A stretch of 47,363 bases of DNA, taken from positions 1-47,363 of IMG/VR virus record IMGVR_UViG_3300006751_000022. One strand, given 5' to 3'. The stretch comes from a virus. This document shows positions 17,967 to 39,526 of this stretch, in pieces (the first letter of the stretch is position 1; each line of letters opens with the position of its first letter). Under the pieces are notes generated by a model. It was not told where the DNA came from. It saw only the letters and a program-made list of their open reading frames with translations, and did not search any database. Made by a program: the position numbers and the translations under genes.

Positions 17967-18151
17967 TTGAAGACGCACCAAAACACAACCCACAAAAGAA
18001 AGTGTGGGAGAATGCAGGTATTTTTGATACCTATCACGAGGCCAGAGCAAAGGCTGAATTGATGAAGTCGGAGACCAAGATCCGTCGTTGTGGTCCCGCT
18101 GGCACAAAATTTAAAATTAAACGAGTTGTGAAGATGCTGGGGGATGGATGA
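17963..18151 (+). CDS. Small basic protein, unknown
   Basis: A 62-aa protein. GGAGG lies directly upstream of ATG 17963. It is basic at its C-terminus (F-K-I-K-R-V-V-K-M), with an E-A-R-A-K-A-E-L helix in the middle. The stop overlaps the start of the IMPDH/GMPR-family gene (ATGA), so it is in the same operon. Function unknown. Confidence 0.55.
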   Translation: MIEDAPKHNPQKKVWENAGIFDTYHEARAKAELMKSETKIRRCGPAGTKFKIKRVVKMLGDG

Positions 18152-19152
18152 GATCAACAGTTACGTTTGATGATGTTCTTATAGTCCCTCAGTATTCGGA
18201 GATAGTTAGTAGAAAATCAATTGATATTGCCAGCATCCTATCTCCCAATGTGGTTTTAGATTTGCCTATCTTTGGAGCGCCAATGGATACTGTTACGGAT
18301 CCCTTTATGCTAAACACAATGAACAGCCACGGCGCTTGTGGGATAATGCATAGATATAACTCAATCTATGAGCAAGTATCATCGATAAAGAGAGTTACTG
18401 GAACAAAAGCAGCAGCCATTGGTGTGACTGGGGATTATCTAAATAGGGCAATCAAGCTGGTTGAGTCTGGCGTCGAGATCATTTGTGTCGATGTGGCTCA
18501 TGGTCACCATGCACTTGTCCGTCATGCGATAAAGACACTGAGAAACACATTGGGGTATGATTTACACATCATGGCTGGCAACGTGGCAACCCTTGAAGCC
18601 TTTAATGATTTGTCTGACTGGGGCGCCAATTCTATTAGAGTTGGAATCGGCGGAGGGTCAATATGTTCTACCCGAATCCAAACTGGCCATGGCATCCCCA
18701 CTTTGCAGTCTATTATTGACTGTTCTTTATCAGATAGACCAGCGAAATTAATAGCCGACGGTGGCCTTAAAAGTTCTGGGGACATGGTAAAGGCCATCGC
18801 CGCCGGCGCTGATTTTGTTATGGCTGGCTCCTTGTTGGCTGGAACGCTTGAGTCTCCCGGAGAGACAACCTTGATCAATGGATCAACTTATAAAAAGTAC
18901 CGTGGCATGGCTTCCATTGAAGCCCAAATCGATTGGAGGGGGCACTCTTCTTCTGAAGAAGGTGTTTCACATATGATGCCTTATAAGGGGTCTGTAAAAA
19001 AGATTTTAAAAGAGCTAGAAGCTGGAATTAGAAGTGGCTTTTCATATAGCGGCGCACTAAATATTGTAGACTTTCAAGCGAAAGCTAAATTTGTAAAACA
19101 AAGCTCGGCTGGCTTATATGAAAGCCGAACCCACATCAAGGATCGCTTTTAA
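18148..19152 (+). CDS. IMP dehydrogenase / GMP reductase family enzyme
   Basis: A 334-aa TIM-barrel protein. It opens with T-F-D-D-V-L-I-V-P and has the A-P-M-D-T-V-T motif. The catalytic cysteine loop is G-G-G-S-I-C-S-T-R at about 168-176, followed by G-x-G-I-P-T-L. A-D-G-G, M-A-G-S-L-L-A-G and Y-R-G-M-A-S complete the IMP phosphate site. CBS domains are absent and the length equals GMP reductase, yet the C-terminal M-P-Y-K-G-S-V and S-A-G-L-Y-E-S read more like IMPDH. The R-Y flap dyad of IMPDH is missing. It therefore either makes XMP for GTP synthesis or recycles GMP to IMP. It starts within the previous stop and ends overlapping the next start. Confidence 0.88.
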   Translation: MRSTVTFDDVLIVPQYSEIVSRKSIDIASILSPNVVLDLPIFGAPMDTVTDPFMLNTMNSHGACGIMHRYNSIYEQVSSIKRVTGTKAAAIGVTGDYLNRAIKLVESGVEIICVDVAHGHHALVRHAIKTLRNTLGYDLHIMAGNVATLEAFNDLSDWGANSIRVGIGGGSICSTRIQTGHGIPTLQSIIDCSLSDRPAKLIADGGLKSSGDMVKAIAAGADFVMAGSLLAGTLESPGETTLINGSTYKKYRGMASIEAQIDWRGHSSSEEGVSHMMPYKGSVKKILKELEAGIRSGFSYSGALNIVDFQAKAKFVKQSSAGLYESRTHIKDRF

Positions 19153-23236: not shown

Positions 23237-24805
23237 GTGAAACACTATCAAAATGGACAAGAACTCAATGTAAAGATTTTAAGAGGCATTGATATTCTTG
23301 CAGACAATGTGGCATCCACACTTGGACCAAAAGGCCGCAATGTGATCCTATATCACAAAGAAGAAAACATTCCCGTTATTACCAAAGATGGTGTGACGGT
23401 AGCAAAGTTTGTCGAGCTTGAAGATCCCTTCGAGAATGTCGGAGCGCAGATCATCAAGCAAGCAGCAGCCAAGACGAACGAGACAGCAGGTGATGGAACA
23501 ACCACCTCCACCGTATTGGCCCGAGGCATACTTAAAAAAGCACAAAAATACCTTATGGCTGGGGTGTCGCCTATTGAGCTTAAGCGAGGTATTGATCTCG
23601 CAGTGGCTGCAATCTGTACCAATTTGAAGGAAATGGCAACCCCAATTCAATCAGAGGAAGATATAGCACACATTGCAACCATCTCGGCTAACAATGATAA
23701 AGTTATTGGTACACTGGTTGCAACAGCAGTTGATAGAGCGGGTAAGGATGGCTCGGTGATAGTTGAAGAGGCCCGTTCACTTGAGACGAGCTTGGATCTT
23801 ATTGAAGGATTTCGTTTCGACTCAGGCTATGCAGCTACTGCGTTCATTACGAATGAGCGTAGTGGAACAGTTGAATATGAGACTCCGATGATTCTAGTGA
23901 CGGACGAGAAGCTTGAACGTGTTGACCAAATTCTACCAGTCCTTGAATTAGCATCCCGAGAAAATCGCCCTCTTCTGGTTATTGCGTCTGATATTGTGGA
24001 CCAAGCCCTCGCCGCTCTTATTATGAATGCGGTTCGTGGAACGATGAAAGTGGCTGCAATTAAAGCTCCACGTTATGGCGAAGAAAGACGCTCAATAATG
24101 AAAGATCTCTGCCTTTCAACCGGAGCCACTATGATTACCCGAGAAAACTCGTTAACCCTAAAAGATGTTAAATTAGCACACTTTGGAGGGTGTAAAAAGG
24201 TATCTGCGGATAAAGGCTGGACAACAATAGTTGGAGGTAAAGGAAACTATGATGAGATCGATAAGAAGATTGAAGCACTTAAAACAGAAATTCAACAGAC
24301 TGAATCACTCAAAGCTTGTGAAAGAATACAGGAACGGATTACAAGACTTGCGTCTGGCATTGCTGTTATTCGTGTTGGCGCTGCTACTGACGTTGAAATG
24401 ATTGAAAAAAAGCACCGCATCGATGATGCACTTGAAGCAGTCCGCTCAGCCCAAGAGGAAGGGATTGTCTCTGGAGGTGGTACTGCCCTACTCCGGGCCG
24501 TCCGTGATCTCATGGTCGAGACAGAGAATGAGGAACAAAATTTGGGCGTTAAGATAGTTTTCGAAGCCATCGAAGAGCCACTAAGACAAATGTGTCTTAA
24601 TGCTGGAGAGTCCCCGGATATTATCGTTGACAAGGTAAAAAGCCTAGAGTTTGGCTGGGGTTACGATTTTGCGTCTGGTCAGGTCAAGGACCTATATCTA
24701 GCTGGGATTATCGATCCGGTCAAGGTTACACGATGTGCGCTGCAAAATGCCGCCTCAGTGTCATCAACTTTAATCACGACTAACCATGCGATTGTTTGCC
24801 AGTAG
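23237..24805 (+). CDS. groEL: Chaperonin GroEL (Cpn60)
   Basis: A 522-aa protein from GTG 23237 with GGAGG upstream. The nucleotide site shows L-G-P-K-G-R-N-V, D-G-V-T-V-A-K and G-D-G-T-T-T-S-T-V. The intermediate-domain G-I-V-S-G-G-G-T-A-L-L and the apical domain are full length. The C-terminus ends without the Gly-Gly-Met repeat tail that bacterial GroEL carries into the cavity. It has a dedicated strong promoter and is not next to the GroES-like gene at 7014. Phage GroELs may fold capsid or enzyme clients or replace the host ring; some work without a co-chaperonin. Confidence 0.97.
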   Translation: MKHYQNGQELNVKILRGIDILADNVASTLGPKGRNVILYHKEENIPVITKDGVTVAKFVELEDPFENVGAQIIKQAAAKTNETAGDGTTTSTVLARGILKKAQKYLMAGVSPIELKRGIDLAVAAICTNLKEMATPIQSEEDIAHIATISANNDKVIGTLVATAVDRAGKDGSVIVEEARSLETSLDLIEGFRFDSGYAATAFITNERSGTVEYETPMILVTDEKLERVDQILPVLELASRENRPLLVIASDIVDQALAALIMNAVRGTMKVAAIKAPRYGEERRSIMKDLCLSTGATMITRENSLTLKDVKLAHFGGCKKVSADKGWTTIVGGKGNYDEIDKKIEALKTEIQQTESLKACERIQERITRLASGIAVIRVGAATDVEMIEKKHRIDDALEAVRSAQEEGIVSGGGTALLRAVRDLMVETENEEQNLGVKIVFEAIEEPLRQMCLNAGESPDIIVDKVKSLEFGWGYDFASGQVKDLYLAGIIDPVKVTRCALQNAASVSSTLITTNHAIVCQ

Positions 24806-26008: not shown

Positions 26009-26257
26009 ATGAGATATTTTGAAATTTATGCTTGGACGGATTGTCCTTATTGTAGTGATGCCAAAGCCCTTCTGATTGAGAATGGTGAGCAATTTTTATT
26101 TTGCTGCATTGACCAGTCAGAGATGTTGCTTCAACATATCAAAACAAAGTGGGGCTGGCAAACAGTTCCTTTGATCTTAGAGAAAAACACCACCAATGAA
26201 GATGTTATATTTGTTGGTGGTTTTACTGATTTGCAAAAGCATTTGGAGAACAAATGA
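26009..26257 (+). CDS. Glutaredoxin
   Basis: An 82-aa protein with GGGGGTG upstream. The active site is D-C-P-Y-C (C12, C15), the cis-Pro motif T-V-P is at about 53-55, and V-G-G-F near the C-terminus binds glutathione. It would use glutathione to reduce disulfides, giving the phage a second dithiol donor besides the thioredoxin at 1116. It is short and typical in size. The stop overlaps the next start (ATGA). Confidence 0.92.
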   Translation: MRYFEIYAWTDCPYCSDAKALLIENGEQFLFCCIDQSEMLLQHIKTKWGWQTVPLILEKNTTNEDVIFVGGFTDLQKHLENK

Positions 26258-26614: not shown

Positions 26615-27208
26615 ATGAAACTTATAATGGAAAACTGGAGGAGCTTCTTAAAAGAAGATAGTACTCCGCTTGTTGTTATTTATTTTGGTGGTTTCAAGCC
26701 ACCACACAAGGGTCATCTCGCTGTTGTTGAGGAGTACCTCTCAATGCCCGAGGTTGAACGTGTTTATATTCTGTTCGGCACATCCCCACGCCATTCAGCC
26801 GATCGATCTCTCTATCTTGATGAGACTCATTCGCAAGCTGTTTGGCATTTATTTTTGGATTCTCTATCTTCGGATAAAGTAACAGTGCTTCCACCAACAT
26901 CGGGAAATACTATGGTCGCAGCAGCGGAACTCGCATGGCTACCAGAGCTATCTGGAAAGCGAATAACTGCTGGCTATGGAGCTAAAGAGCCGAAGTATGG
27001 CCAATCGTTTATCCGTGTTGTTGAGTCTCTTGCTGAAGAAAAGGGACAACCTCTGGCGATCCCCGTGGCAACACCAAGCTCGATAGATGTTCCGGGGGTA
27101 TCATCGACTAAAATACGGGAGGCTCTCGTTCAGAAGGACATGAAATATTTAGAACAAGCTGTCCCCGCTGGTGTTTCTGTCGAAGAATATATAAATATTT
27201 TAACTTAA
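26615..27208 (+). CDS. Nucleotidylyltransferase (NMN/pantetheine adenylyl or cytidylyl type) with capsid-targeting-like N-terminus
   Basis: A 197-aa protein. Its first 14 residues, M-K-L-I-M-E-N-W-R-S-F-L-K-E, look like a detachable leader. The HUP-class catalytic motif is P-P-H-K-G-H at 29-34, with G-G-F-K-P before it, and the second motif V-S-S-T-K-I-R-E-A-L lies near the end. These residues bind ATP/CTP and transfer the nucleotide. The substrate (NMN, glycerol-3-phosphate or pantetheine) cannot be decided from the motifs alone. It is the last gene before the tmRNA promoter. Confidence 0.85.
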   Translation: MKLIMENWRSFLKEDSTPLVVIYFGGFKPPHKGHLAVVEEYLSMPEVERVYILFGTSPRHSADRSLYLDETHSQAVWHLFLDSLSSDKVTVLPPTSGNTMVAAAELAWLPELSGKRITAGYGAKEPKYGQSFIRVVESLAEEKGQPLAIPVATPSSIDVPGVSSTKIREALVQKDMKYLEQAVPAGVSVEEYINILT

Positions 27209-27211
27209 TTC

Positions 27212-27240
27212 TTGACAAGATAGAAGAAACAGGTTATACT
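27212..27240 (+). promoter_or_regulatory. Sigma70-type promoter for tmRNA
   Basis: TTGACA (27212-27217), 17-bp spacer, TATACT (27235-27240). Thirteen bases before the tmRNA 5' end. Confidence 0.85.
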
Positions 27241-27252: not shown

Positions 27253-27587
27253 GGGGGCGTAATGGTTTCGACAGGGTAGAACTCGGAGGACGAGTGCAGG
27301 TAGGTAAGATACAACCTTAAAAGTTCAATTGCAATAACTGCAAACAATAATTATTATTTCGAACAAGCCTTAGCTGCTTAATCGGGTGGCCGTCCCGAGC
27401 CATCTAACCAAGAGGGACAAAACAACAGACAAGTTGTAAAAATCAAACAACTCGGTGCAATAGGACAGTAAGCATCGTTTCACAACTGTCTACCTTTGTT
27501 AGTTTGTGATAGTAAACTAACTAAACCTGTGAATGACTCTATTCTAAGCTACTGTGGACGAGGGTTCGACTCCCTCCGCCTCCACCA
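27253..27587 (+). ncRNA. ssrA: tmRNA (SsrA) with tag ANNNYYFEQALAA
   Basis: A 335-nt RNA. The 5' G5CG (27253-27259) pairs with CGCCTCC (27577-27583), with one G-U. The T-arm GAGGG-TTCGACT-CCCTC is at 27560-27576, and A-CCA is genomically encoded at 27584-27587. The 5' side has the conserved start of tmRNAs (GTAATGGTTTCGACAGG). A resume GCA at 27340 opens a reading frame ending at TAA 27379-27381, giving tag A-N-N-N-Y-Y-F-E-Q-A-L-A-A. Its C-terminus matches the ALAA degron read by ClpXP. It rescues stalled ribosomes; the phage also encodes ClpP, giving a local partner. Confidence 0.96.
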
Positions 27588-27603: not shown

Positions 27604-28758
27604 ATGAGTGATGCAAAATTAATATTTGAAAACTGGCGCGGCTTTCTTAATGAAAGAAAGTCAGATGCCCTTTATAAAGCGATAGTCGATTTTTTTGTCG
27701 ATGTACTCTGGAAACCAAAAAATTTTAGAGTCTCATATGTACCAGCCGGTGAACCAATAAAACACTGGAGCCGCGATGACAAGGACTGGTGGCAAGCCTT
27801 TCATACAGGCGAGCCCCTTAGAGCCCCGGGAAGTGAAAACGAAAAACACGCCGCTATGTATGGAGATGTTATAGCAGATGAGGAATATCTTTACAAGAGA
27901 TATTTAGAGATTCTTGCGGACAACAATGTCACAGATGATCCGATTTTCTCAGATTGGTCAAAGGGCGGCAACCCGTATCGCGCACCGGCGCACCCTGATT
28001 TTGTCTACGCTATCAATAAATTTCGTTTCCGGGCTGTTTACAGAGATCCTACCGGCAACTCCGGCGGTTCAATGTCTGATAATGGTCGTATGACACTATT
28101 TCATTATGGACGGATTGACGGTGTTGATGACAACGAAGCCTTCTTGAGACTAAAGGAGAAATTTCGAAGCACATTGGATCATGAAATAGTTCACTACATA
28201 AATTCTGTTAGGTCGGGATTTGTCCGTACTCGTTCAGTCGGGGGAGAAAAACAATATGATACTGGCTCTCAAGAGTATGTAGACTCCACAGAGGAAATGC
28301 AAGCAAGGCTGATTGAAGCGTTTAAAAGATTTGAACGTCTGCCTGATGTCCCCGAGCGGCGATGGACAACAAAAGAAGAAGGCGGATGGTGGAAAACTTT
28401 TAAAAATTGGATTGGCATGGGCTACGATCCCTACGACCTTAGTAAAGATAAAGACAGAGATGGCCTCGCAGACCACCCCAGCCTCAAACGTAAAGGCAAA
28501 GAAAGATGGTATCTAACGCTTTACACAGGAAGTATTAGATGGTTTATCAAGCAGTGGATTGAAGTCTTTTATGCCGAGGGAATAGAAAGATATTATCTTG
28601 AAAATCACACCAAAGAGAACCAACAAAGACTACTTGGCAGGGTTTATCAATATGCCAAGGATTTGAAAGACAGCAGGAATTATAAAAAATGGGTTGAACA
28701 AGAAGAGCGCATGAGAGCCTCAATTGACAAAGCCTTTAAGACTAACAAGGAGACATAA
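27604..28758 (+). CDS. Putative zinc metallopeptidase with capsid-targeting-like N-terminus
   Basis: A 384-aa protein. Residues 1-18 contain L-I-F-E-N-W-R-G-F-L-N-E, the same leader as in the gene at 26615. The zinc motif H-E-I-V-H is at 193-197, followed about 35 residues later by E230 in S-T-E-E-M-Q-A-R, consistent with a gluzincin-like third ligand. The central part (residues 250-300) includes an acidic D-K-D-R-D-G-L calcium-like loop. A protease delivered by the virion could act on host or cell-wall proteins, but this is speculative. The distance from the tmRNA 3' end is only 16 bases. Confidence 0.7.
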   Translation: MSDAKLIFENWRGFLNERKSDALYKAIVDFFVDVLWKPKNFRVSYVPAGEPIKHWSRDDKDWWQAFHTGEPLRAPGSENEKHAAMYGDVIADEEYLYKRYLEILADNNVTDDPIFSDWSKGGNPYRAPAHPDFVYAINKFRFRAVYRDPTGNSGGSMSDNGRMTLFHYGRIDGVDDNEAFLRLKEKFRSTLDHEIVHYINSVRSGFVRTRSVGGEKQYDTGSQEYVDSTEEMQARLIEAFKRFERLPDVPERRWTTKEEGGWWKTFKNWIGMGYDPYDLSKDKDRDGLADHPSLKRKGKERWYLTLYTGSIRWFIKQWIEVFYAEGIERYYLENHTKENQQRLLGRVYQYAKDLKDSRNYKKWVEQEERMRASIDKAFKTNKET

Positions 28759-28760
28759 CA

Positions 28761-28925
28761 ATGACAGAGATATTAGCATCGAAAAACTTTAGTTTGTTTT
28801 GTGCTGTTTTAAACGGCGCGTTTGCACTTCAAGCGTTCCTTATTGGCAGTTGGTTATGGGGCGGATTCTGCTTGGCCTTCTGTGTATTATGTTCGAACAA
28901 TTATCGAAATGCGGAGAAGCAGTGA
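28761..28925 (+). CDS. 54-aa membrane protein
   Basis: ATG 28761 has AAGGAG nine bases upstream. Two hydrophobic segments (F-S-L-F-C-A-V-L-N-G-A-F-A and G-G-F-C-L-A-F-C-V-L-C) span the membrane, with a short polar tail. It is coupled to the next gene by a GTGA overlap. The role is unknown. Confidence 0.55.
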   Translation: MTEILASKNFSLFCAVLNGAFALQAFLIGSWLWGGFCLAFCVLCSNNYRNAEKQ

Positions 28926-29122
28926 GCCCCGGAGACAGAGTGAGAGATTTGATTCGTGGGAGACTCGGCACCTCTAAAGGCCCCGTATTTCGTTATGGTG
29001 TGCATTGGGTTTTGGTCGAGTGGGACACCGGCCCTGACTCCATTATTCTGGAGCACTGTCTGGAACTATTCGACCAAAAGGAGAATGATTGGGACTGTAC
29101 ACCCTTCGGTGAACAAAGATAA
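28922..29122 (+). CDS. SPGDRV-type small-barrel protein
   Basis: A 66-aa protein from GTG 28922, overlapping the previous stop, with GGAG upstream. It reads S-P-G-D-R-V-R-D-L, R-L-G-T, V-L-V-E-W-D-T-G and ends in L-E-L-F. This matches the array family (V-G-D-L-V..G-I-I..V-x-W..G) and so is another outlying member. Function unknown. Confidence 0.6.
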   Translation: MSPGDRVRDLIRGRLGTSKGPVFRYGVHWVLVEWDTGPDSIILEHCLELFDQKENDWDCTPFGEQR

Positions 29123-29128
29123 ATAAAT

Positions 29129-29204
29129 GCAGGTGTAGCTCAGTTGGTAGAGCATCACGTTGCCAACGTGAATGTCGTGGGTTCGAGCCCCATCACCTGC
29201 TCCA
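29129..29204 (+). tRNA. tRNA-Gly (anticodon GCC)
   Basis: A 76-nt cloverleaf including an encoded CCA (29202-29204). Acceptor GCAGGTG pairs with CACCTGC. The anticodon stem TCACG/CGTGA encloses the loop TTGCCAA with GCC at 29162-29164. The T-arm is GTGGG-TTCGAGC-CCCAT. Phage tRNAs often match codons the phage uses more than its host does. Confidence 0.97.
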
Positions 29205-29224
29205 TTTTAAAAAAGGAGGATTGA

Positions 29225-29485
29225 ATGAAAAAGATTATTCATGTCAACCAGCATAAAATTCGCAAGAATACAAAACATGGAACTGACGAACCAGTTCTTA
29301 CTGTTAAGACTTACAAAGAAAACAACTATGCCCACGAAGCTATAATGAAAACGAAAGATGGTGCCACAATCGGCAAAGTAATATATAGCCCTCACAAACC
29401 ACTAAGCTGTGGAGCGAGGGTGTGGATTGAATTGGATACTGATGTTATTGATGTGGATCTAATTGTAAGAGGTGAAGATGTTTAA
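29225..29485 (+). CDS. Conserved hypothetical protein
   Basis: An 86-aa protein with AGGAGG before the ATG. It begins K-K-I-I-H-V-N-Q-H-K-I-R-K-N and ends in S-P-H-K-P-L-S-C-G-A-R-V-W-I-E. I recall this pattern in other phage and bacterial hypotheticals, but its function is unknown. The stop overlaps the lipoprotein start. Confidence 0.65.
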   Translation: MKKIIHVNQHKIRKNTKHGTDEPVLTVKTYKENNYAHEAIMKTKDGATIGKVIYSPHKPLSCGARVWIELDTDVIDVDLIVRGEDV

Positions 29486-30365
29486 CTTATTATATTTATT
29501 GGCCTGTTCACCAGAAATCGGTCTGATTGGTTACAGAGACAAACAACAAGATAGCAGTGCGGTGCAAGATACTACCACCACTACGGAACCTGCCGGAGAG
29601 CCCTCCCCCCCTGATACCTCCCTACCCCCAAGGGAGGGGGTGTCTGGATATATATATTGGAAGCTTCAACAGGTCGCTTGCCCTGCTTGCGTTGGTCAAT
29701 CTCATGAAATCGCAATAGATTTTAAAGCTGAATTCCACCAACCGATTACAGATTCACATGTTGGTTGGATACCTGAACCTTCAGAGTGTACTCAGAACTT
29801 ATTTATAACCAATCCCTCAACCATACCTGAGAGTGTAGGTTCCAGCCTAACGCTACAGGGGAACATTCATTCGTTCACAGTGCCAATGACAGGCCAAGCC
29901 CAATATGAAACACAGCAGATATATGAGACACAATATGAGCGTGATACAATCTACAGCCTGTATGGTGATGGGGTCAATACCACATTCACTTCGTCTCATG
30001 GGTTTGATTATATTGAACCCTTTAATATGTTATATGTTGATCCGTCATATGCTTTTGACGCTGCAATAAGCCGCACTGGTATGACATTCTTTTGGGGTCC
30101 GAGTGGGACCAATCACAAGTTTATGATTACAGTTTCTGTTTATAGTCAAGATGGCTCTCAATTCCTTGGTTATGTAACTTGTGTGGGCTCTGACGTTGGC
30201 TATATGACAATCTCAAGCCAGTATCTTTCTTCATATCCAGTTTGGTCGTTGGTCGCAATTCACCTTGCGAGACACCAAGTTGATCTTATTGAGACGGATT
30301 TATTTAATTCTTATATTGAATCTCACATGGAGTGGGAAGTGGTAGGAACAGGGCACATTGAATAG
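29478..30365 (+). CDS. Putative lipoprotein with a GC-rich proline segment
   Basis: A 295-aa protein from ATG 29478 (GAGGTGAAG upstream). It has a lipobox L-L-A-C, then a Thr/Pro/Ser linker carrying a GC-rich stretch (P-S-P-P-D-T-S-L-P-P-R-E-G) and a beta-rich domain with C-P-A-C and later single cysteines. The protein is probably anchored at a membrane surface. The proline tract looks inserted (see the hairpin at 29617). No enzyme motif is recognised. Confidence 0.55.
   Translation: MFNLLYLLACSPEIGLIGYRDKQQDSSAVQDTTTTTEPAGEPSPPDTSLPPREGVSGYIYWKLQQVACPACVGQSHEIAIDFKAEFHQPITDSHVGWIPEPSECTQNLFITNPSTIPESVGSSLTLQGNIHSFTVPMTGQAQYETQQIYETQYERDTIYSLYGDGVNTTFTSSHGFDYIEPFNMLYVDPSYAFDAAISRTGMTFFWGPSGTNHKFMITVSVYSQDGSQFLGYVTCVGSDVGYMTISSQYLSSYPVWSLVAIHLARHQVDLIETDLFNSYIESHMEWEVVGTGHIE
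29617..29637 (+). repeat. GC-rich perfect hairpin inside the lipoprotein gene
   Basis: CCTCCCT / AGGGAGG (29617-29623 with 29631-29637), 7-nt loop, in an otherwise AT-rich gene. Surrounding C- and G-runs allow alternative pairing. Confidence 0.65.
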
Positions 30366-30373
30366 GAGAACCA

Positions 30374-30694
30374 ATGCCAAAAAAATCATTAGATAAAAAA
30401 AGCGACATCGGTGTCATGGATCGACAGAAGAATGAGATGGAGCCACCCAAGAAGTACAAAGTTGTCTTCCACAATGATGACTACACTTCGTTTCAATTTG
30501 TTGAACAAGTGTTGATACAACTGTTTCACAAATCAGCCACAGCGGCCAGATCCATTGCCAAATCAATACATCACTCTGGGAAGGGTATAGCTGGTGTCTA
30601 TTCCAAGGAGATCGCTGAAACCAAAGCCCACCAAGTCAACCTTGCTGCCAGAGCACAGGGATTGCCCCTGCTGGCGGAGATTGAACCGGAATGA
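30374..30694 (+). CDS. clpS: ClpS, N-end rule adaptor
   Basis: A 106-aa protein. It has P-P-K-K-Y-K-V-V-F-H-N-D-D-Y-T-S (N34, D35, D36, matching E. coli ClpS numbering), H66 in I-H-H-S-G-K-G, and A-E-T-K for the C-terminal helix. These residues form the pocket for a free N-terminal amino group of type 2 N-degrons. It hands substrates to ClpA. With the phage ClpP and tmRNA tag it suggests a redirection of host proteolysis; no ClpA is seen. The stop overlaps the next start (ATGA). Confidence 0.95.
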   Translation: MPKKSLDKKSDIGVMDRQKNEMEPPKKYKVVFHNDDYTSFQFVEQVLIQLFHKSATAARSIAKSIHHSGKGIAGVYSKEIAETKAHQVNLAARAQGLPLLAEIEPE

Positions 30695-30843
30695 ATCCTA
30701 TTTTGAAGAAAATTTGTTTAGTTTGTGTATTCATAAATATATATCTTATGTTCTTCAATATCATGATTGAGGCCGAATGGTACGTTCCTTTCATGAACTT
30801 TCTATTCGCAGGGCTGTGTTGGTACTCATATGACAAGTCATGA
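30691..30843 (+). CDS. 50-aa membrane protein
   Basis: ATG 30691 overlaps the ClpS stop (ATGA). Two transmembrane segments (I-C-L-V-C-V-F-I-N-I-Y-L-M-F-F and M-N-F-L-F-A-G-L-C-W-Y) enclose a short loop with E-A-E. It ends inside the phosphoesterase gene, whose start lies 14 bases before this stop. Function unknown. Confidence 0.55.
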   Translation: MNPILKKICLVCVFINIYLMFFNIMIEAEWYVPFMNFLFAGLCWYSYDKS

Positions 30844-31537
30844 TAAAGATTACGTCCGACTAATAATATCGGATGTGCATCTTGGGAGTTACTATTCAAA
30901 AGAAGCCAAGCTGCTCTCCTTTCTCAAGACCGTTGAATTTGATGAATTGGTCTTAGCTGGGGATATTATTGACTTCATCAAGATACCTCAGTTCACCGAG
31001 ACAACAATAAAGATTTTTGATTATATATCAAAGCTGAATAAAAAAATAATATATGTTGTCGGCAATCACGATATTGCATTTGAGAAGTTCATCGGCAAAC
31101 AGTTTGCCCACATTGAGTTTGTCTCTCAGTATGAGTTTGAATATGGGAACAGATCATATAGGATTCAACATGGCGATCAGTATGAAACTGGACTGATACA
31201 CTGGAGATTTACAATGAAAGTGGTCTCTGTGTTTCACGATATGTTGGAGAGATTCTTTAAAAGAAACCTCGCAGCCCTTCTTGTAAAGATGTTTGTTAAG
31301 AAGAAGAAGATCAAGCGTATCTGGAATCTCATCCAGTGGAATGATGATGTTGATGTCTTCATCATGGGACACACTCATATTCCTGAAGTGGTCATCTGGG
31401 TAGACCAGAGCGAGAATATAAGAACCTATGCCAACACGGGAGACTGGGTTGAGCACACGACATATATCATTCTTAAAGACGGAAACCTGCGATTGAAAAA
31501 GTATGAATTGTCCCAATCTGGCGACACACCACCTTAA
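30830..31537 (+). CDS. Calcineurin-like metallophosphoesterase (LpxH/YfcE-like)
   Basis: A 235-aa protein. The metal-binding motifs appear in order: S-D-V-H-L-G (D15, H17), A-G-D-I-I-D (about 43-48), V-G-N-H-D (about 77-81) and M-G-H-T-H-I-P near 180. It hydrolyses phosphate esters; UDP-diacylglucosamine, nucleotides and protein phosphates are all possible substrates. The next gene encodes a phosphate permease, so phosphate scavenging is a plausible context. The start is weakly marked (no clear ribosome-binding site), suggesting coupling to the upstream membrane protein. Confidence 0.9.
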   Translation: MTSHDKDYVRLIISDVHLGSYYSKEAKLLSFLKTVEFDELVLAGDIIDFIKIPQFTETTIKIFDYISKLNKKIIYVVGNHDIAFEKFIGKQFAHIEFVSQYEFEYGNRSYRIQHGDQYETGLIHWRFTMKVVSVFHDMLERFFKRNLAALLVKMFVKKKKIKRIWNLIQWNDDVDVFIMGHTHIPEVVIWVDQSENIRTYANTGDWVEHTTYIILKDGNLRLKKYELSQSGDTPP

Positions 31538-31579
31538 TGAAATCTCGCTGCTATTTAATTGCAAACAAGGAAAGAAATT

Positions 31580-32533
31580 ATGTCTTTATCAATAGTATTT
31601 GGTGCTATTGGTTTTTTTTTGGCAGCATTTTCTGTCATTGGAAACGATAGCGCACAAACACTTGGAACTTTTATAAGCTCCAACAACAAAAAGGTTAAGT
31701 GGTATTGGATGTGGGCTTTTGCATCTGTCATTCTGACTGCTACCCTCCTATCGGGGTGGGTGCAAGGTGACATTGCATTTGGCCGCCTGAATAAGATTCC
31801 ACTTCCCGATCAATTTCAGTGGTATCACGCTATGGCTCCAGCATTGTTACTGGGGCTTACTCGTTTTGGAATACCCGTTTCGACGACACTCTTAACTTTA
31901 AGTGCCTTTTCGAGCGGCATTGTGTTGGAAAAGATAATCATGAAATCGGCCATGGGCTATGCGATAGCTGCTGTGGCTGCATATGCCATTTGGATGGTCA
32001 TGTCGAGGTATCTAAATGAAAAGGAAAAGGTGAGCGAGAACAAGAGAAAGTTTTGGGCTATAGCTCAATGGTTTTCAACAGGTTTCTTATGGTATATGTG
32101 GTTGTCGCATGACATCGCCAACGTCTTTGTTTACCTACCAAGGGACGGCGTTTCGTTGCAGATGATGTTAGGTGTAATTGTTATTCTGGTTATTGGTTTG
32201 GCTCACCTGTTCTACAATCGAGGAGGAAAGATCCAAGAAATTGTCCTCTCCAAGAGTGGAACCCGCTTCATCCGATCAGCTTGTCTCATTGATTTATTTT
32301 ATGCAATGGTTCTCTGGTATTTTAAGATATACAATGATATTCCAATGAGTACCACATGGGTCTTTGTTGGCCTGTTGGCTGGTAGAGAGTTGGCAGTGTA
32401 TCGAATATTCAATAAGGACAAAGAAGTTAAGGTCATCTTCCCAGTACTTGTTGATGACTTCTTAAAAATTATGTTAGGTCTTGCACTTAGTGTGGCTGTA
32501 GTCACGGGTGTAATCTATTTTGATTCTTTGTGA
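31580..32533 (+). CDS. PiT-family inorganic phosphate permease
   Basis: A 317-aa multi-spanning membrane protein. ATG 31580 (AAGGA upstream) is chosen. The first helix ends in the PiT signature-like G-N-D-S-A-Q-T-L-G at 21-29, and a second symmetrical region has G-I-P-V-S-T-T-L-L. About eight or nine transmembrane segments are visible. PiT proteins import phosphate with H+ or Na+; direction and ion are not clear. Phage-encoded transporters of this type are uncommon and act as auxiliary metabolic genes. A strong terminator follows. Confidence 0.8.
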   Translation: MSLSIVFGAIGFFLAAFSVIGNDSAQTLGTFISSNNKKVKWYWMWAFASVILTATLLSGWVQGDIAFGRLNKIPLPDQFQWYHAMAPALLLGLTRFGIPVSTTLLTLSAFSSGIVLEKIIMKSAMGYAIAAVAAYAIWMVMSRYLNEKEKVSENKRKFWAIAQWFSTGFLWYMWLSHDIANVFVYLPRDGVSLQMMLGVIVILVIGLAHLFYNRGGKIQEIVLSKSGTRFIRSACLIDLFYAMVLWYFKIYNDIPMSTTWVFVGLLAGRELAVYRIFNKDKEVKVIFPVLVDDFLKIMLGLALSVAVVTGVIYFDSL

Positions 32534-32561
32534 ATAAGTTAAGCCCCGCGTCGTTATTTCG

Positions 32562-32590
32562 GGTCAAAGTGTTAAGCTTTGGCCTTTTTT
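32562..32590 (+). terminator. Rho-independent terminator
   Basis: GGTCAAAG / CTTTGGCC (32562-32569 with 32577-32584) with one T-G pair, 7-nt loop, T6 tract. Ends the permease unit. Confidence 0.88.
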
Positions 32591-32630
32591 ACTTTCCTTT
32601 CTATAGTTATTAATAGGGGGGAGTTATGAA

Positions 32631-33350
32631 ATGTATTTTGGGGGATTACTTTTAAGTTTGTTGATAAGCTGTGACGTAAGGATCACAGAAGACCCGTTTT
32701 CAATAGACATTCAGTCGCAATCAGTCTGCCGCTACAATCCAAAGGGATTAAAGCAATCGATGAAATCTTCGGTGCAAATATCTTTTATGGTTGGTGGAGA
32801 GCAAGTTGGCAAAGCATCGGGCAACTATTTCAAACATCGTGGGAACACTTTTGTAATCACCGCAGCCCATGTGGCTGATGCCGCCGAACAATCTGATCTT
32901 GTGGTGAACGAAAGGATTGGTATTGGATATTCGGAGGTGGACATTGTCTACACCAACGAGATTCATGATCTGGCTATACTTAAACTCAAGAGTGACTTGG
33001 CCACTGTTGATCCTATAAAGTGGCGCAGGAAGGATCGGTGGGAGCTTGACATCGGTGAGCCTTTGTATTACACTGGTCATCCAATGGACTTGGATCATAT
33101 TTCATTCAATGGTTCGGTTGCCAAGATTTATCAAGAAACAATTGTGATGCAGGGATTTGCCTATATGGGATCATCCGGCTCCGCAGTATTTGACAAGAGA
33201 GGGAGAGTCGTTGGGGTCATCTCCGCAATAAAGTTTGACGTTCCGGGCGGCGCATTTCCACAGCTTCTTCCAAGCGTTGTAATGATTGGGGGCATAAGTG
33301 TGCTGCATGATGGAGAGCTTCACAGCCTCTTGGAGGCTGCTGGTGAATGA
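32631..33350 (+). CDS. Trypsin-like serine protease, possible lipoprotein
   Basis: A 239-aa protein from ATG 32631 (GGGGGAG upstream; an ATG at 32626 leads only to a short frame). It has a hydrophobic start and a lipobox-like L-L-I-S-C (C14). The catalytic triad is H80 (T-A-A-H), D113 (I-H-D-L-A-I-L) and S182 (M-G-S-S-G-S-A-V), as in the trypsin/DegP fold. Proteolysis would take place outside the cytosol if exported. No PDZ domain is present. The stop overlaps the next start. Confidence 0.85.
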   Translation: MYFGGLLLSLLISCDVRITEDPFSIDIQSQSVCRYNPKGLKQSMKSSVQISFMVGGEQVGKASGNYFKHRGNTFVITAAHVADAAEQSDLVVNERIGIGYSEVDIVYTNEIHDLAILKLKSDLATVDPIKWRRKDRWELDIGEPLYYTGHPMDLDHISFNGSVAKIYQETIVMQGFAYMGSSGSAVFDKRGRVVGVISAIKFDVPGGAFPQLLPSVVMIGGISVLHDGELHSLLEAAGE

Positions 33351-33583
33351 AGTGGAGATTTAAGATTGGCACCCTTTTAGAAGACTCGGGAACCGTCGGT
33401 GTAGTCTCAGCCCACTTACCTTTGGGTTGTGAAACATTTGAAGGATTTGCAAAAATCAATTGGAGAAATAACTATGAAATAGTATATGCAAATCAGACTA
33501 CTTATATAATAGGGGCTTCCGCCCTCCACCGATTAGTTGACTCTGGTCAAATAAATTTATTAAAACTTCCTTATAAAACTTGA
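33347..33583 (+). CDS. FKIG-type small beta protein
   Basis: A 78-aa protein coupled to the protease by ATGA. R-F-K-I-G-T-L-L-E-D-S-G-T-V-G-V-V-S-A and A-K-I-N-W-R-N share the array family's layout (K-V-G-D-L, G-I-V, V-x-W), so it may be a distant member. Its stop codon lies within the next promoter's -35. Confidence 0.5.
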   Translation: MKWRFKIGTLLEDSGTVGVVSAHLPLGCETFEGFAKINWRNNYEIVYANQTTYIIGASALHRLVDSGQINLLKLPYKT

Positions 33584-33608
33584 CAAGAGATAGAAAATTG
33601 GTTATATT
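33580..33608 (+). promoter_or_regulatory. Sigma70-type promoter
   Basis: TTGACA (33580-33585), 17-bp spacer, TATATT (33603-33608). Last of the canonical class; from 34448 on, promoters switch to the dyad class. Confidence 0.85.
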
Positions 33609-33628
33609 ATAGACACGCTGGAGAACAA

Positions 33629-33874
33629 ATGTTACTGGAAAAGGAAAAAGGAATTATAAAATCCATCGGCCCATTTGAGAGAGCCAAGACAAACTTAGAA
33701 AGGTTTGCGTGGAATTTTATGATTGTTTACACGGTGTATAACATTGTGAAAGCTTATGAATACATCGAACAGGGTGAAGAGGATAAGCTAAAACTCACCA
33801 AAATAACGGCTGATACCACCCTACAGGGGGTCTTTCACCTTATTTTGGAAAAGAACAATAATGTTTGGGATTGA
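33629..33874 (+). CDS. Small helical protein, unknown
   Basis: An 81-aa protein with TGGAG before the ATG. It is mixed helical (E-R-A-K-T-N-L-E-R-F-A-W-N-F-M-I-V-Y) and has no recognised motif. Confidence 0.55.
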   Translation: MLLEKEKGIIKSIGPFERAKTNLERFAWNFMIVYTVYNIVKAYEYIEQGEEDKLKLTKITADTTLQGVFHLILEKNNNVWD

Positions 33875-33876
33875 CA

Positions 33877-34134
33877 ATGTTCGGAGAGTTACACCAATTC
33901 TTGTCGTTTGACAGCAGGAATGAAAGAAGAGAATATTGGCTTGGAAGGCTTGTGCAAGCAAAATCGCCCATAAGGATCGATTTGTTTAACTTTTTGCCAC
34001 AAGATATTCTTGGCTTAGTAATAGATTTGGAGGAATCAAATGGATCTAATTATGTATTGGTTGTTAGGTGGACAAATGGTCTTACCTTTCCCTGTTATCA
34101 ACACAGCATTTATTCACATGAAGAAGGAAAATAA
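33877..34134 (+). CDS. Small protein with a barrel-like C-terminal half
   Basis: An 85-aa protein. ATG 33877 follows the previous stop by two bases, with weak GGGA upstream. The C-terminal half (I-L-G-L-V-I-D-L-E, Y-V-L-V-V-R-W-T-N-G-L-T) reads like the G-I-V..V-R-W..G core of the KVGD family. Function unknown. Confidence 0.5.
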   Translation: MFGELHQFLSFDSRNERREYWLGRLVQAKSPIRIDLFNFLPQDILGLVIDLEESNGSNYVLVVRWTNGLTFPCYQHSIYSHEEGK

Positions 34135-34135
34135 A

Positions 34136-34447
34136 ATGACAAAGTCTAAACACACAACAAAGGCCACTAAAAAAGAGATTAAAGGTGGTTTAATGACTCT
34201 GGCAACAGAAAACACCCCCAATAGGTTCAATGTCAAGTTTGATAGCGATGGCTCCGGCCCTTGTGCGGTGCTGATGGTCGAAAGAGACAAGGGGGAGGAT
34301 TCCAATGGACGCTCCCCATTTAATAGCTGGACAATGATGCCAGCGAAATATATGGGCTGGCGAGTTGTTTTCTTGCATGTTCCACATGGATATATTGACA
34401 CATTTTATGATGCCGATGGTAATTATAAAGTGACAGCAGACGCTTAA
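34136..34447 (+). CDS. Conserved-looking hypothetical protein
   Basis: A 103-aa protein from ATG 34136 with AAGGA upstream. The basic Lys/Thr-rich head (M-T-K-S-K-H-T-T-K-A-T-K-K-E) leads to a folded C-terminus (F-N-V-K-F-D-S-D-G-S-G-P-C). The stop directly precedes the first dyad promoter. Confidence 0.6.
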   Translation: MTKSKHTTKATKKEIKGGLMTLATENTPNRFNVKFDSDGSGPCAVLMVERDKGEDSNGRSPFNSWTMMPAKYMGWRVVFLHVPHGYIDTFYDADGNYKVTADA

Positions 34448-34491
34448 CGGACATTTTCTGTCCTCGACAATCTGGTTGAACAGGTTATATT
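34448..34491 (+). promoter_or_regulatory. Dyad promoter 1
   Basis: GGACA-TTTTC-TGTCC (34449-34463), -35 TCGACA (34464-34469), 16-bp spacer, -10 TATATT (34486-34491). Drives 34512-35493. Confidence 0.85.
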
Positions 34492-34511
34492 ATTAATACA
34501 TTGGAGGTCAA

Positions 34512-34697
34512 ATGAAAAAAGAAAACAATGAAATTACTATCAAGATTAACGTGTCTGATGCCATGCTTTCAGCAATAGCGAATGTTTTGGTCATGACGAG
34601 TTCGCCCAAGCTACCACAAGCTCTTATGACACTGAAGTCTACTACTACCCTGCCCCCCTCACCCCCCTTGGGCTTCCGAGCAAAAGGGGGTAATTAG
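34512..34697 (+). CDS. Small protein with GC-rich proline tail
   Basis: A 61-aa protein, GGAGG before ATG 34512. The N-terminal half is I-K-I-N-V-S-D-A-M-L-S-A-I-A-N. The last 15 residues are encoded by a GC-rich C/G-run sequence (P-P-S-P-P-L-G-F-R-A-K-G-G-N) that looks inserted and probably replaced the original C-terminus. Confidence 0.5.
   Translation: MKKENNEITIKINVSDAMLSAIANVLVMTSSPKLPQALMTLKSTTTLPPSPPLGFRAKGGN
34663..34690 (+). promoter_or_regulatory. GC-rich hairpin over the ribosome-binding site of the zinc-knuckle gene
   Basis: CCCCCTT / AAGGGGG (34663-34669 with 34684-34690) encloses a GCT-TCCG-AGC inner stem. The G5 strand is the only plausible ribosome-binding site for GTG 34699, so the fold could limit its translation. 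Confidence 0.5.
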
Positions 34698-34698
34698 C

Positions 34699-35493
34699 GT
34701 GTTTAAATACGCTCACGGAGGCGTGGTTAGGTGTTCATTCTGTGGCGTAAGGGGGCATAATATACGATCTTGTAAAGATGTTGTTATAGCAGCAACTGAT
34801 GAGGACAATATATCTTATGACGCACAACAGGTTTATAAAGCCAAGTCCGAGTTGGCCAAGCGAACTGCTCCAAAGTCCAAACAGGTGAACCAAAGAGGTA
34901 AACCTCGTTGCGGTTTTTGCCGATCCACAAAGCACAATAGAAAGAATTGCCGAAGAATGAAAAAGTTCAGAAACAAGCTTTATAAAGCAAATACAAACTG
35001 GCGGAAACATTTTGCAAATAGGGCTAACATTCTTGGTGTGGGACAAGGGGCTTTAATAGAGGCATGTGGTGTGCCTGTAAATGTGTTGGCGAAGTTTAGT
35101 GTTTCACCCACCAAGGGAAGTCATATTGGAATCGTAAATGAATATGATTATGACAATTTAAATGTATTTTGCAATTACTCTGGTTCATATGATTATAGGT
35201 CATCGGCAGATGTAACTGCCAAACTAATAACCACCGGCGGTTTGGTAGATATAAGCATAGGGAAATATATTGGTGAGGATTTGTTTCGTGAAAACACCCT
35301 TTTCGCTCATTGGTGCAAGTTTAAAGTTATAAATCGAAAAGAAATACAGTTTTCAAAGAAGTGGCTGGGGGATAAGAACATCCCGATGTTGGATTGGTTG
35401 CCCCAAACACACAGTTTTGAAGAGTTACAATCGCTTGGCATTGTTGCGTTTTTAGATTATTGGACAAAAAATGTCCTCGACAATAATGAATAG
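34699..35493 (+). CDS. Double CCHC zinc-knuckle protein, paralogue 1
   Basis: A 264-aa protein from GTG 34699. Two retroviral-type zinc knuckles, C-x2-C-x4-H-x4-C, sit at C12-C15-H20-C25 and C71-C74-H79-C84, separated by a 45-residue linker. After them comes a basic helix (K-K-F-R-N-K-L-Y-K-A-N-T-N-W-R) and a domain with L-G-V-G-Q-G-A-L-I-E. Zinc knuckles usually bind single-stranded nucleic acid. Two paralogues follow at 38709 and 43259. The stop codon lies inside the next dyad promoter. Confidence 0.75.
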   Translation: MFKYAHGGVVRCSFCGVRGHNIRSCKDVVIAATDEDNISYDAQQVYKAKSELAKRTAPKSKQVNQRGKPRCGFCRSTKHNRKNCRRMKKFRNKLYKANTNWRKHFANRANILGVGQGALIEACGVPVNVLAKFSVSPTKGSHIGIVNEYDYDNLNVFCNYSGSYDYRSSADVTAKLITTGGLVDISIGKYIGEDLFRENTLFAHWCKFKVINRKEIQFSKKWLGDKNIPMLDWLPQTHSFEELQSLGIVAFLDYWTKNVLDNNE

Positions 35494-35504
35494 TGGGTTA
35501 TATT
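35462..35504 (+). promoter_or_regulatory. Dyad promoter 2
   Basis: GGACA-AAAAA-TGTCC (35462-35476), TCGACA (35477-35482), 16 bp, TATATT (35499-35504). The dyad lies within the upstream gene's last codons. Confidence 0.8.
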
Positions 35505-35530
35505 AGTTATGTATTCAAACGGGAGGCAAA

Positions 35531-35710
35531 ATGAAATACAATATTATTAAACTTGAACAGCAACCTAAAGGCTCAGTTCATTGTGGAACTATTCGTTCCG
35601 AAGGGAAGGTGGCGACCTATTTAACAAGGTCATCAGCTTATGAAAAGGTGAGCAAACTGAAAACAACTTCGCCCAATTCGACATTTATTGTGTCGAAGCA
35701 CTGGAGGTGA
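35531..35710 (+). CDS. 59-aa protein, first gene of the dyad-2 operon
   Basis: ATG 35531 with GGGAGG upstream. The product starts M-K-Y-N-I-I-K-L-E-Q-Q-P and ends K-H-W-R. Its last codons (T-G-G-A-G-G-T-G-A) carry the ribosome-binding site for the next gene. Function unknown. Confidence 0.6.
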   Translation: MKYNIIKLEQQPKGSVHCGTIRSEGKVATYLTRSSAYEKVSKLKTTSPNSTFIVSKHWR

Positions 35711-35713
35711 TTC

Positions 35714-35887
35714 GTGAAAATCGGAGACACCGTTAGGATAAGACCTTCTGGTGAGGTGGGGGTAATTACGGAAAGTGTAGACCGTGTTATAGGAACACAT
35801 GTAGACAAATTGCCAAGGTGGGTTGTCCACCTTGCTATAACAATGAGAAATCATATATTTTTAGAGAAGGATTTAGAAATAATTTAA
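35714..35887 (+). CDS. KVGD family member (GTG start)
   Basis: A 57-aa protein, M-K-I-G-D-T-V-R-I-R-P, then G-E-V-G-V-I-T and a V-V-H-L strand. It is the first member in the accessory region. It uses GTG and has GGAGGT upstream inside the previous gene. Function unknown. Confidence 0.7.
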   Translation: MKIGDTVRIRPSGEVGVITESVDRVIGTHVDKLPRWVVHLAITMRNHIFLEKDLEII

Positions 35888-35909
35888 TACTCAGATGGAG
35901 GGGTATACA

Positions 35910-36044
35910 ATGAGCAGAATAGTAAAACGGGCAGTCGCCCTGTCCAGAAAAAATAGCGAATGGTATGCAGCCAGCAGCCAACCAAAACCATTAACCAAAG
36001 AGGTGAAAAATGAAAACAAAGAGATACAAAAGGGTCGTGTGTAA
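35910..36044 (+). CDS. 44-aa basic protein
   Basis: ATG 35910 with GGAGGGG upstream. M-S-R-I-V-K-R-A-V-A-L-S-R-K begins a strongly basic, Lys/Gln-rich peptide that overlaps the next gene by 35 bases. Possibly nucleic-acid binding; tentative. Confidence 0.45.
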   Translation: MSRIVKRAVALSRKNSEWYAASSQPKPLTKEVKNENKEIQKGRV

Positions 36045-36336
36045 AGATGGGTTCTCAATGAGCGTTCAAGCTCATGATGGGGCTTATTGCGAACCAAGAA
36101 TAGATAATGCAGCAAATTACACAGAGGTAGAAGTCGGCTATCCAACACAGATAGAAGAACTGCTCATGCCTTGGTGTGAAGACAAAGATAAGCCATGCAA
36201 TACAGTCTATGGCTATGTCCCTGTCTTCACTGTTCACCTCGTTATAACAAAACATGGTGGTATGGTTGAGGGTGAGGTTCCAAACGGAGTGTTGCTTTAT
36301 GATAAAGCCGGACAAAATCTGTCCTCGACAGGATGA
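36010..36336 (+). CDS. Conserved-looking hypothetical with promoter-encoded tail
   Basis: A 108-aa protein; GAGGTG precedes ATG 36010. It contains Y-T-E-V-E-V-G-Y-P and D-T-V-Y-G-Y-V-P-V-like segments (here N-T-V-Y-G-Y-V-P-V) that I recall in phage hypotheticals. Its last nine codons (A-G-Q-N-L-S-S-T-G) are the dyad and -35 of the next promoter, so the protein ends inside regulatory DNA. Confidence 0.65.
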   Translation: MKTKRYKRVVCKDGFSMSVQAHDGAYCEPRIDNAANYTEVEVGYPTQIEELLMPWCEDKDKPCNTVYGYVPVFTVHLVITKHGGMVEGEVPNGVLLYDKAGQNLSSTG

Positions 36337-36352
36337 CGGAACAGGTTATAAT
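36309..36352 (+). promoter_or_regulatory. Dyad promoter 3
   Basis: GGACA-AAATC-TGTCC (36310-36324), TCGACA (36325-36330), 16 bp, TATAAT (36347-36352). The -10 directly abuts GTAGGAGAC, i.e. the remains of a V-G-D-L-V coding start. Confidence 0.85.
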
Positions 36353-36367
36353 GTAGGAGACTTAGTA

Positions 36368-36583
36368 ATGGTACACGGGGTTCACTTGGGTATCATTACT
36401 TTGTTTTATGCTCCCCGTGGATTGTGGGTAATAAGGCTTGCACATGACGGACAGGAACTTGCCCTATTTAGGGATGATTTTGAACCATTAAACTATATGG
36501 AGAACAATAATGGAAGAACAGATGACAATAATGGAAAAGTTAAGATATGTTCCCAAGGAGGGGGATGTGTTGATTTATCTTGA
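36368..36583 (+). CDS. KVGD family member with truncated 5' end
   Basis: A 71-aa protein from ATG 36368. The preceding codons (36353-36367) encode V-G-D-L-V in frame but their ATG is replaced by the promoter's TATAAT. Translation therefore starts at the methionine after V-G-D-L-V, with AGGAGA (part of the same codons) as ribosome-binding site. The core H-L-G-I-I-T-L, G-L-W-V-I-R-L and F-E-P-L is intact. The C-terminus runs into the next gene by 74 bases. Confidence 0.55.
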   Translation: MVHGVHLGIITLFYAPRGLWVIRLAHDGQELALFRDDFEPLNYMENNNGRTDDNNGKVKICSQGGGCVDLS

Positions 36584-36755
36584 TGGGTCGCACTTGCAAA
36601 TCAAAGAGATTAAGAAAACCCACGTTAAACTTGAAAAATCGGGAAGCGGTGAGGATCTTCCTTTGAAGCCCGTTGCTCACATTAGGTCAGATATGATTAA
36701 GAATGAGTGCTTCCTTTGCAGAAGAAAATTGGCGGCACCAAATGAAAACAGGTGA
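36510..36755 (+). CDS. KEGD-type small protein
   Basis: An 81-aa protein, GGAG before ATG 36510. V-P-K-E-G-D-V-L-I-Y-L-D-G lies near residue 14, like K-V-G-D-L-V with a longer head. A C-F-L-C-R-R pair follows. It ends N-E-N-R, the shared junction with the next gene (14-base overlap). Confidence 0.6.
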   Translation: MEEQMTIMEKLRYVPKEGDVLIYLDGSHLQIKEIKKTHVKLEKSGSGEDLPLKPVAHIRSDMIKNECFLCRRKLAAPNENR

Positions 36756-36912
36756 TTTGGTAAAAGTACAAGGACACTGCGTTGAAGAGTATGCCCTGTT
36801 GGTAGAAATTGGGGAAAAAGATGGTTGCAATTGGGTGCGGGTTCGCTATTTTGATGGTGAAGAGGAAGTGCTTCATCCAACACAGGTGAAAAGAGTTAGT
36901 GAAAGCAGGTGA
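36742..36912 (+). CDS. KVGD family member, recent duplicate A
   Basis: A 56-aa protein, M-K-T-G-D-L-V-K-V-Q-G-H-C-V-E-E-Y-A-L-L then C-N-W-V-R-V-R-Y-F-D-G-E-E-E. It is strongly similar to the protein at 37837-38028, whereas other members diverge widely. The upstream ribosome-binding site is altered (GGCGG). It ends S-E-S-R at a 14-base overlap with the next. Confidence 0.7.
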   Translation: MKTGDLVKVQGHCVEEYALLVEIGEKDGCNWVRVRYFDGEEEVLHPTQVKRVSESR

Positions 36913-37117
36913 TTTGATATGCTTTGCTTTCAAACCCCCTTTGCGGAGGGTTCCCCCAATGGCAATAGTTGTCCATGCCTACAAGAGTCATGATTACCTC
37001 GAAGGACACGTTGAGGTTGTTTGGATAACTGGTTCGATGGCTGGACAAAGAAAGTGTTACCCCCCTTCAAACTTGGTAAAAGTAAAACCGGACATTTTTT
37101 GTCCTTTACAACTTTAA
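36899..37117 (+). CDS. KVGD family member (GTG start)
   Basis: A 72-aa protein, M-K-A-G-D-L-I-C-F-A-F, A-I-V-V-H-A-Y, V-E-V-V-W-I-T-G-S. Basic loop K-P-P-L-R-R-V-P-P after the first strand. The last codons (K-V-K-P-D-I-F-C-P-L-Q-L) read through the next dyad and -35. Confidence 0.65.
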   Translation: MKAGDLICFAFKPPLRRVPPMAIVVHAYKSHDYLEGHVEVVWITGSMAGQRKCYPPSNLVKVKPDIFCPLQL

Positions 37118-37133
37118 GCAAATATGCTATATT
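37089..37133 (+). promoter_or_regulatory. Dyad promoter 4 (variant)
   Basis: GGACA-TTTTT-TGTCC (37090-37104), -35 TTTACA (37105-37110), 17 bp, TATATT (37128-37133). The only copy with a TTTACA -35 and a 17-bp spacer. Confidence 0.75.
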
Positions 37134-39524: not shown

Positions 39525-39526
39525 AC

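Follow-up and report, generated by a model that had tools for sequence, protein, structure and literature searches.

Phage tmRNAs are usually regarded as borrowed host genes. Among cultured phages, 402 of 18,146 were reported to carry a tmRNA (PMC9004378), and it has been proposed that these RNAs maintain translation or tag host proteins during infection (PMC9004378, PMC7162821). The marine T4-like phages Melnitz (a Methylophilales phage) and Mosig (a Pelagibacter phage) each encode a complete tmRNA under its own control (PMC9004378), and phage DS6A has a tmRNA-like RNA without a tag, which inhibits the host tmRNA (PMC4131195). Jumbo-phage ClpP and ClpS, for their part, have been proposed to target host proteins (PMC7824862). 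A search of papers for phage trans-translation together with ClpP returned nothing direct, and the tmRNA database published in 2025 covers viruses only as far as they are in RefSeq (PMC11915505). The new element described here is a lineage of viral tmRNAs that share a tag.

The window, i.e. the whole stretch of DNA that was analysed, comprises 47,363 nt of the IMG/VR virus record IMGVR_UViG_3300006751_000022. ARAGORN assigned to the tmRNA exactly the boundaries given in Table 1, with the tag ANNNYYFEQALAA, and the Rfam model RF00023 aligned over its positions 1–374 (gathering threshold 47 bits, E 4.5e-44). The promoter ahead of the gene matches the consensus at 11 of 12 positions, ranks first among the five promoter-like sites of the region and is separated from the start of the tmRNA by 12 nt. 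The tRNA-like domain shows the acceptor stem GGGGGCG/CGCCUCC with G3:U70 inside it, an A73 discriminator and an encoded CCA; G3:U70 is the alanine identity pair read by host AlaRS. The resume codon opens a short tag frame whose peptide ends hydrophobic-Ala-Ala before the stop codon. ARAGORN, Rfam, the promoter scan and the sequence itself thus bear out the sequence-only reading, which had described a complete tmRNA with a strong promoter, an encoded CCA and this tag, and Pfam likewise confirmed the ClpP and ClpS genes at the positions it had proposed. The only other RNA gene found in the window by ARAGORN and Rfam is a tRNA-Gly(GCC). A candidate second tmRNA at 40290–40399 (17.6 bits) was rejected, as only an 18-nt T-arm-like stretch contributes to the score (13.4 bits).

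Table 1. Position, strand and supporting evidence of the main features in the window.
Feature	Position	Strand	Evidence or note
sigma70-type promoter TTGACA-17 nt-TATACT	27212..27240	+	promoter scan, sequence
one-piece tmRNA (ssrA)	27253..27587	+	ARAGORN; RF00023 114.4 bits, full length; covariation in relatives
tag reading frame GCA...TAA, encodes ANNNYYFEQALAA	27340..27381	+	ARAGORN, gene positions 88–129
gene after tmRNA, family unassigned by Pfam/PHROG	27604..28758	+	HEIVH zinc-peptidase-like motif, N-terminal ENWRGFLNE motif
tRNA-Gly(GCC)	29129..29204	+	ARAGORN + RF00005 71.4 bits
ClpP-like serine protease, phage clade	20606..21235	+	PF00574 E 2.2e-32
ClpS, N-degron adaptor	30374..30694	+	PF02617 E 2.7e-26
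GroEL-like chaperonin (proteostasis context)	23237..24805	+	PF00118 E 1.3e-66; PHROG 5725 E 1.6e-144

Regarding the frequency of phage tmRNAs, which had been called uncommon, the statement holds for cultured phages, but in IMG/VR a single tmRNA 3’-end pattern was found in at least 120 stretches, and 97 of those listed hold a tmRNA confirmed by ARAGORN, so that at least 97 exist for this one pattern. A first survey of virus contigs with such a pattern, which is blind to the tag, gave 31 one-piece tmRNAs among the matches listed. Five of these carry tags of the form ANNNxHF..., equal in frequency to the group of the DVELSTMTFEDAM type. Other groups of viral tmRNAs (L016, L059, L086, L099 and L101; L026, L062, L065 and L089) have long recurrent tags of up to 31 residues, e.g. 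DVELSTMTFEDAMAFVGADYAVAA and ANADTFDFSAMSFTGNTVRGAANESRFALAA. Screening for ANNNx[YHND]F[ED], written as a DNA pattern, yielded at least 119 virus stretches. ARAGORN found a tmRNA in at least 91 of them, and the family form of the tag, ANNNx[H/N/Y]F[E/D]...LAA, is present in at least 91 virus contigs. The tag had been judged atypical from its letters, which is correct and is explained by this tag lineage of viruses.

Among the matches listed we counted 82 distinct related sequences with the motif ANNNx[HNY]F[ED]...LAA. Conservation at positions 2–4 and 6–8 is partly imposed by the search pattern; position 6 is His in 72 of the 82, where Tyr, His, Asn or Asp were permitted. Conservation of the C-terminus is independent of the pattern: every one of the 82 tags has AA at its end, 75 of them LAA, and the codon of the penultimate Ala varies among GCC (30), GCT (23), GCG (21) and GCA (8). 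A fixed end combined with synonymous change of the Ala codon indicates that the tag peptide is under selection. The RNA itself is conserved as well. G3:U70 and an ACCA end were each found in 88 of 95 tag-family sequences, and most of the exceptions look like shifts caused by end trimming. In an alignment of 43 diverse relatives G3:U70 is kept in every one; 33 of the 59 consensus pairs show compensatory changes and 97% of the predicted base-pair cells are paired, so the tmRNA is more than a chance match. A tmRNA tree from which the tag codons had been removed still groups the tag family together with moderate support (81/93), and neighbouring genes are common to up to 54 of 93 tag-family loci.

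This conservation also bears on the idea that the tmRNA is a decoy or competitor, which titrates host SmpB and replaces the host tag in order to spare particular proteins or to evade host adaptors. The phage tag is indeed unlike known host tags, such as the ANNDFAPAMAA found in a Halobacteriovorax MAG, and the RNA of DS6A provides a precedent for inhibition of a host tmRNA. A pure decoy, however, would have no need of a ClpX/ClpA-type degron, for which the LAA end in 75 of 82 tags with synonymous codon change argues, and we regard this explanation as very unlikely.

We also screened 84,980 bacterial and archaeal genomes with the DNA pattern of the tag; since the pattern fixes certain flanking bases, a bacterial tag in another resume context could escape it. 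Out of 82 DNA matches only three are tmRNAs, and all three lie inside virus-like stretches. One is on a contig of 101,404 bp whose proteins are identical to those of an equally long IMG/VR virus contig, and the genes flanking the other two belong to the viral family. Each of the three genomes has a further tmRNA match elsewhere, for two of which ARAGORN confirmed the tag. In the WOR-3 MAG 'chromosome' CP070664.1 (L363) a viral-type tmRNA lies on a phage-like segment that contains runs of N and is probably a misassembly or a provirus. A blastn search for a cultured relative with a tag of this family gave none, the matches being confined to short pieces, chiefly of the 3’ end. Judged from these sequence comparisons, one-piece tmRNAs with tags of this form appear to be a lineage so far found almost only in viruses.

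A tmRNA that is merely a host gene, acquired through integration at ssrA or by recent transfer and of no use to the phage, would be conceivable given that ssrA is often used for integration and that 37-nt fragments of the 3’ end occur in many temperate phage records. What the window holds is a full-length gene with its own promoter, in a phage that is T4-like (see below), and it is kept in the at least 91 virus contigs with neighbouring genes in common. Together with the three virus-like matches in 84,980 genomes, this led us to reject an integration remnant or host copy, which we consider extremely improbable; neither a bacterial host tag nor a leftover of integration, which the sequence-only reading had named as the finding that would speak against it, was encountered.

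To place the window in its genome, we compared it with a sister record (G001) of 191,495 bases, which matches positions 1–27947 at 100% and 27664–47363 at 99.8%. The window spans both ends of this record, and the two records together close into a circle of about 191 kb. The sister record encodes a terminase, a portal, a T4-type major capsid protein, an S77 prohead protease, a tail sheath and a T4 baseplate protein, a set of genes that identifies a T4-like myovirus. SmpB was not found in the 191 kb genome, nor in any virus record tested, and ClpX and ClpA have no recognisable gene in the 191 kb, so these factors must be supplied by the host. Regarding the host, the closest cultured terminases are those of Flavobacterium and Microcystis phages (44–47%), SD-like motifs ahead of 33 of 53 genes (background 11.6%) speak against Bacteroidota, and three co-binnings with MAGs point to hosts that disagree.

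The gene that follows the tmRNA starts 16 nt past its end. It has no match in Pfam or PHROG, its relatives were found solely in the sister record, and the two contig ends of that record differ there by about 13%. About ten unrelated proteins, including this one (window 7295–7888, 26615–27208 and 27604–28758; L130–L139 of the sister record), start with a common motif, ENWRxFLxE or LRxIIKE. In sequence the motif resembles the T4 capsid-targeting sequences that are cut by the S77 prohead protease, and the proteins may be packaged and injected. Besides the GroEL-like chaperonin, the window encodes a separate GroES-like protein (7014–7298; PF00166 E 0.001, slightly short of the cut-off) and host-like genes of metabolism and redox chemistry, namely an IMP dehydrogenase (18148–19152), a phosphate transporter (31559–32533, weak match), a glutaredoxin (26009–26257), a thioredoxin (1116–1436) and an FKBP isomerase (383–811). 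Three proteins (34699–35493, 38709–39524 and 43259–44092) carry paired CCHC zinc-knuckle motifs (CGFCGxxGHNxRxC); none of the three has a PHROG match and the first is without a Pfam match too.

The ClpP-like gene lies on the strand of the tmRNA about 6 kb upstream, with other genes in between. The alignment shows Ser115 and His140 in place and Asn191 at the position of the ClpP Asp, and the protein therefore lacks the Ser-His-Asp triad of cellular ClpP (MEROPS S14). The same exchange is seen in 7 of the 8 distinct proteins that make up its clade, which is supported by 100/99 in the tree. The Pfam match begins at position 16 of the profile, which indicates that the canonical N-terminal segment is missing; in cellular ClpP this segment (the axial loops) contacts the AAA+ ATPase. 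In its place is an acidic, disordered N-terminus (residues 1–22 with pLDDT below 50 in AlphaFold2). According to the AlphaFold2 model (pLDDT 79) the fold is that of ClpP, the Foldseek matches being ClpP structures with E about 1e-15, probability 1.00 and TM about 0.8. A role as head-maturation protease was rejected, because the S77 prohead protease (sister record 121949–122560, E 8.7e-36) is a separate gene flanked by portal and capsid genes, and some 48 kb separate the capsid gene from the ClpP-like gene beyond it.

These observations raise the question of a dedicated route, in which the phage tag and the ClpP-like barrel belong together and ANNNxHF[E/D] is read by phage factors, or by altered host factors, that feed phage ClpP. 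Of 12 tag-family records that are 150 kb or longer, 11 have ClpP-like genes, compared with 2 of 8 large virus contigs picked at random, the Ser-His-Asn clade is in this comparison confined to tag-family phages, and the protein is not the head protease, since a separate prohead protease exists. On the other hand, all tag-family phages belong to a single clade and the co-presence is therefore not independent, and of the 11 genomes with a ClpP no more than 8 have a member of the Ser-His-Asn clade, the rest having different ClpP paralogs. One record of 155 kb (G076) has a tmRNA and no ClpP match, no unfoldase was found encoded in the 191 kb genome, and the protein is without the region that meets the ATPase. 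We consider a dedicated route unlikely. In its broadest form, a virus-specific lineage of trans-translation with its own degradation code (ANNNxHF[E/D]...LAA) might re-route stalled chains to the matched Ser-His-Asn barrel or away from host adaptors, an idea we hold to be similarly doubtful. Four tag-family records (G007, G044, G049 and G055) carry two ClpP-like paralogs each, in every case a Ser-His-Asn clade member beside a protein with Ser-His-Asp. Outside the tag family, ClpP occurs in about 5 of 10 contigs that have a tmRNA and a length of 150 kb or more, a count that leaves out G012 for which no tmRNA was confirmed, compared with 2 of 8 random ones; these numbers are small.

The ClpS gene is on the tmRNA strand, 2.8 kb downstream and separated by other genes. 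Its product matches structures of E. coli ClpS (E 5.8e-17 for the top match), and the alignment shows conserved NDDYT, H-x-x-G-K and AETK motifs and a Phe at the position of E. coli Met40. The motifs of the N-degron alpha-amino pocket (N34, D35, D36 and H66 in E. coli ClpS) and those that contact ClpA are thus conserved in the phage protein. Of 48 tag-family records just 3 have ClpS, which was rejected as a regular partner of the tag lineage. In E. coli ClpS reportedly shifts ClpAP from ssrA-tagged substrates to N-degrons, and ClpS and tmRNA are therefore not expected to act in series. The claim that the tmRNA has its own proteolysis partners is supported only in part: the ClpP-like and ClpS genes are real, but the ClpP clade is divergent, ClpS is rare in the tag family, and SmpB, ClpX and ClpA were not found. 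The view that the trio works as a unit was not supported, with ClpS in 3 of 48 records and a ClpP without its N-terminus and mostly with Asn for Asp. Nor was there support for the supposition that the trio is unusual: Sinorhizobium phage Phosso and four virus records (G003, G010, G028 and G034) also combine tmRNA, ClpP-like protein and ClpS, and Myxococcus phage Mx1 has a tmRNA together with a ClpP-like gene.

The reading we favour, and consider quite probable, is that of a working phage tmRNA of viral lineage, which performs trans-translation with host SmpB and whose products go to host ClpXP (or ClpAP). The tmRNA would be transcribed from its own strong promoter, be charged with alanine by host AlaRS via G3:U70 and, bound by host SmpB and EF-Tu, enter ribosomes that have stalled on truncated mRNAs in the infected cell; we assume that it fits host SmpB, AlaRS and ClpX. 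It would then add (A)ANNNYYFEQALAA to the stalled chain, so that tagged chains would end in ...AANNNYYFEQALAA, and the LAA end would direct them to host ClpXP (or ClpAP), with ribosomes freed and amino acids recycled for the phage. For the two phage proteins, ClpP-like and ClpS, a role in parallel to this pathway is more likely than one as obligatory steps in it, and ClpS would deliver N-degron proteins to host ClpAP; a link of either to the tmRNA is an unproven hypothesis. That a large viral lineage has a conserved tag of its own, hardly seen in bacterial genomes, indicates that ribosome rescue is kept and diversified by viruses for their own use. The tag can serve directly as a marker to detect phages of this family, its conserved segment offers a concrete target for asking which adaptor or protease reads it, and the Ser-His-Asn ClpP-like clade is a second testable component.

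Compared with the described systems, Melnitz and Mosig resemble the window phage in being marine and T4-like, but their tmRNAs are two-piece, permuted and of the alphaproteobacterial type, unlike the one-piece tmRNA with the tag ANNNYYFEQALAA, and the report on them (PMC9004378) names no ClpP or ClpS. PA5oct and Atu_ph07 encode ClpX (PMC6102473), in contrast to the window phage, and neither has a tmRNA above the Rfam cut-offs; PA5oct has ClpS, FtsH and ClpP besides ClpX. In the tmRNA tree the row closest to the tag family is Bacillus phage G, which likewise has a one-piece tmRNA (67.6 bits, tag AKLNITNNELQVA) and ClpP, but its ClpP is canonical and stands beside a ClpX-like gene, it has no ClpS match and its tag is unrelated. 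Listeria ClpP1, which has Asn in its catalytic triad, shares the Ser-His-Asn active site with the phage ClpP-like protein; it is a cellular protein that assembles with ClpP2, whereas the phage protein lacks the N-terminal segment. The cultured phage Phosso (PV764938) differs from the window phage in being a 469 kb jumbo phage with a permuted tmRNA (113 bits) and in that one of its two ClpP-like proteins is canonical with Ser-His-Asp, but like the window phage it combines tmRNA, ClpP-like protein and ClpS in one genome.
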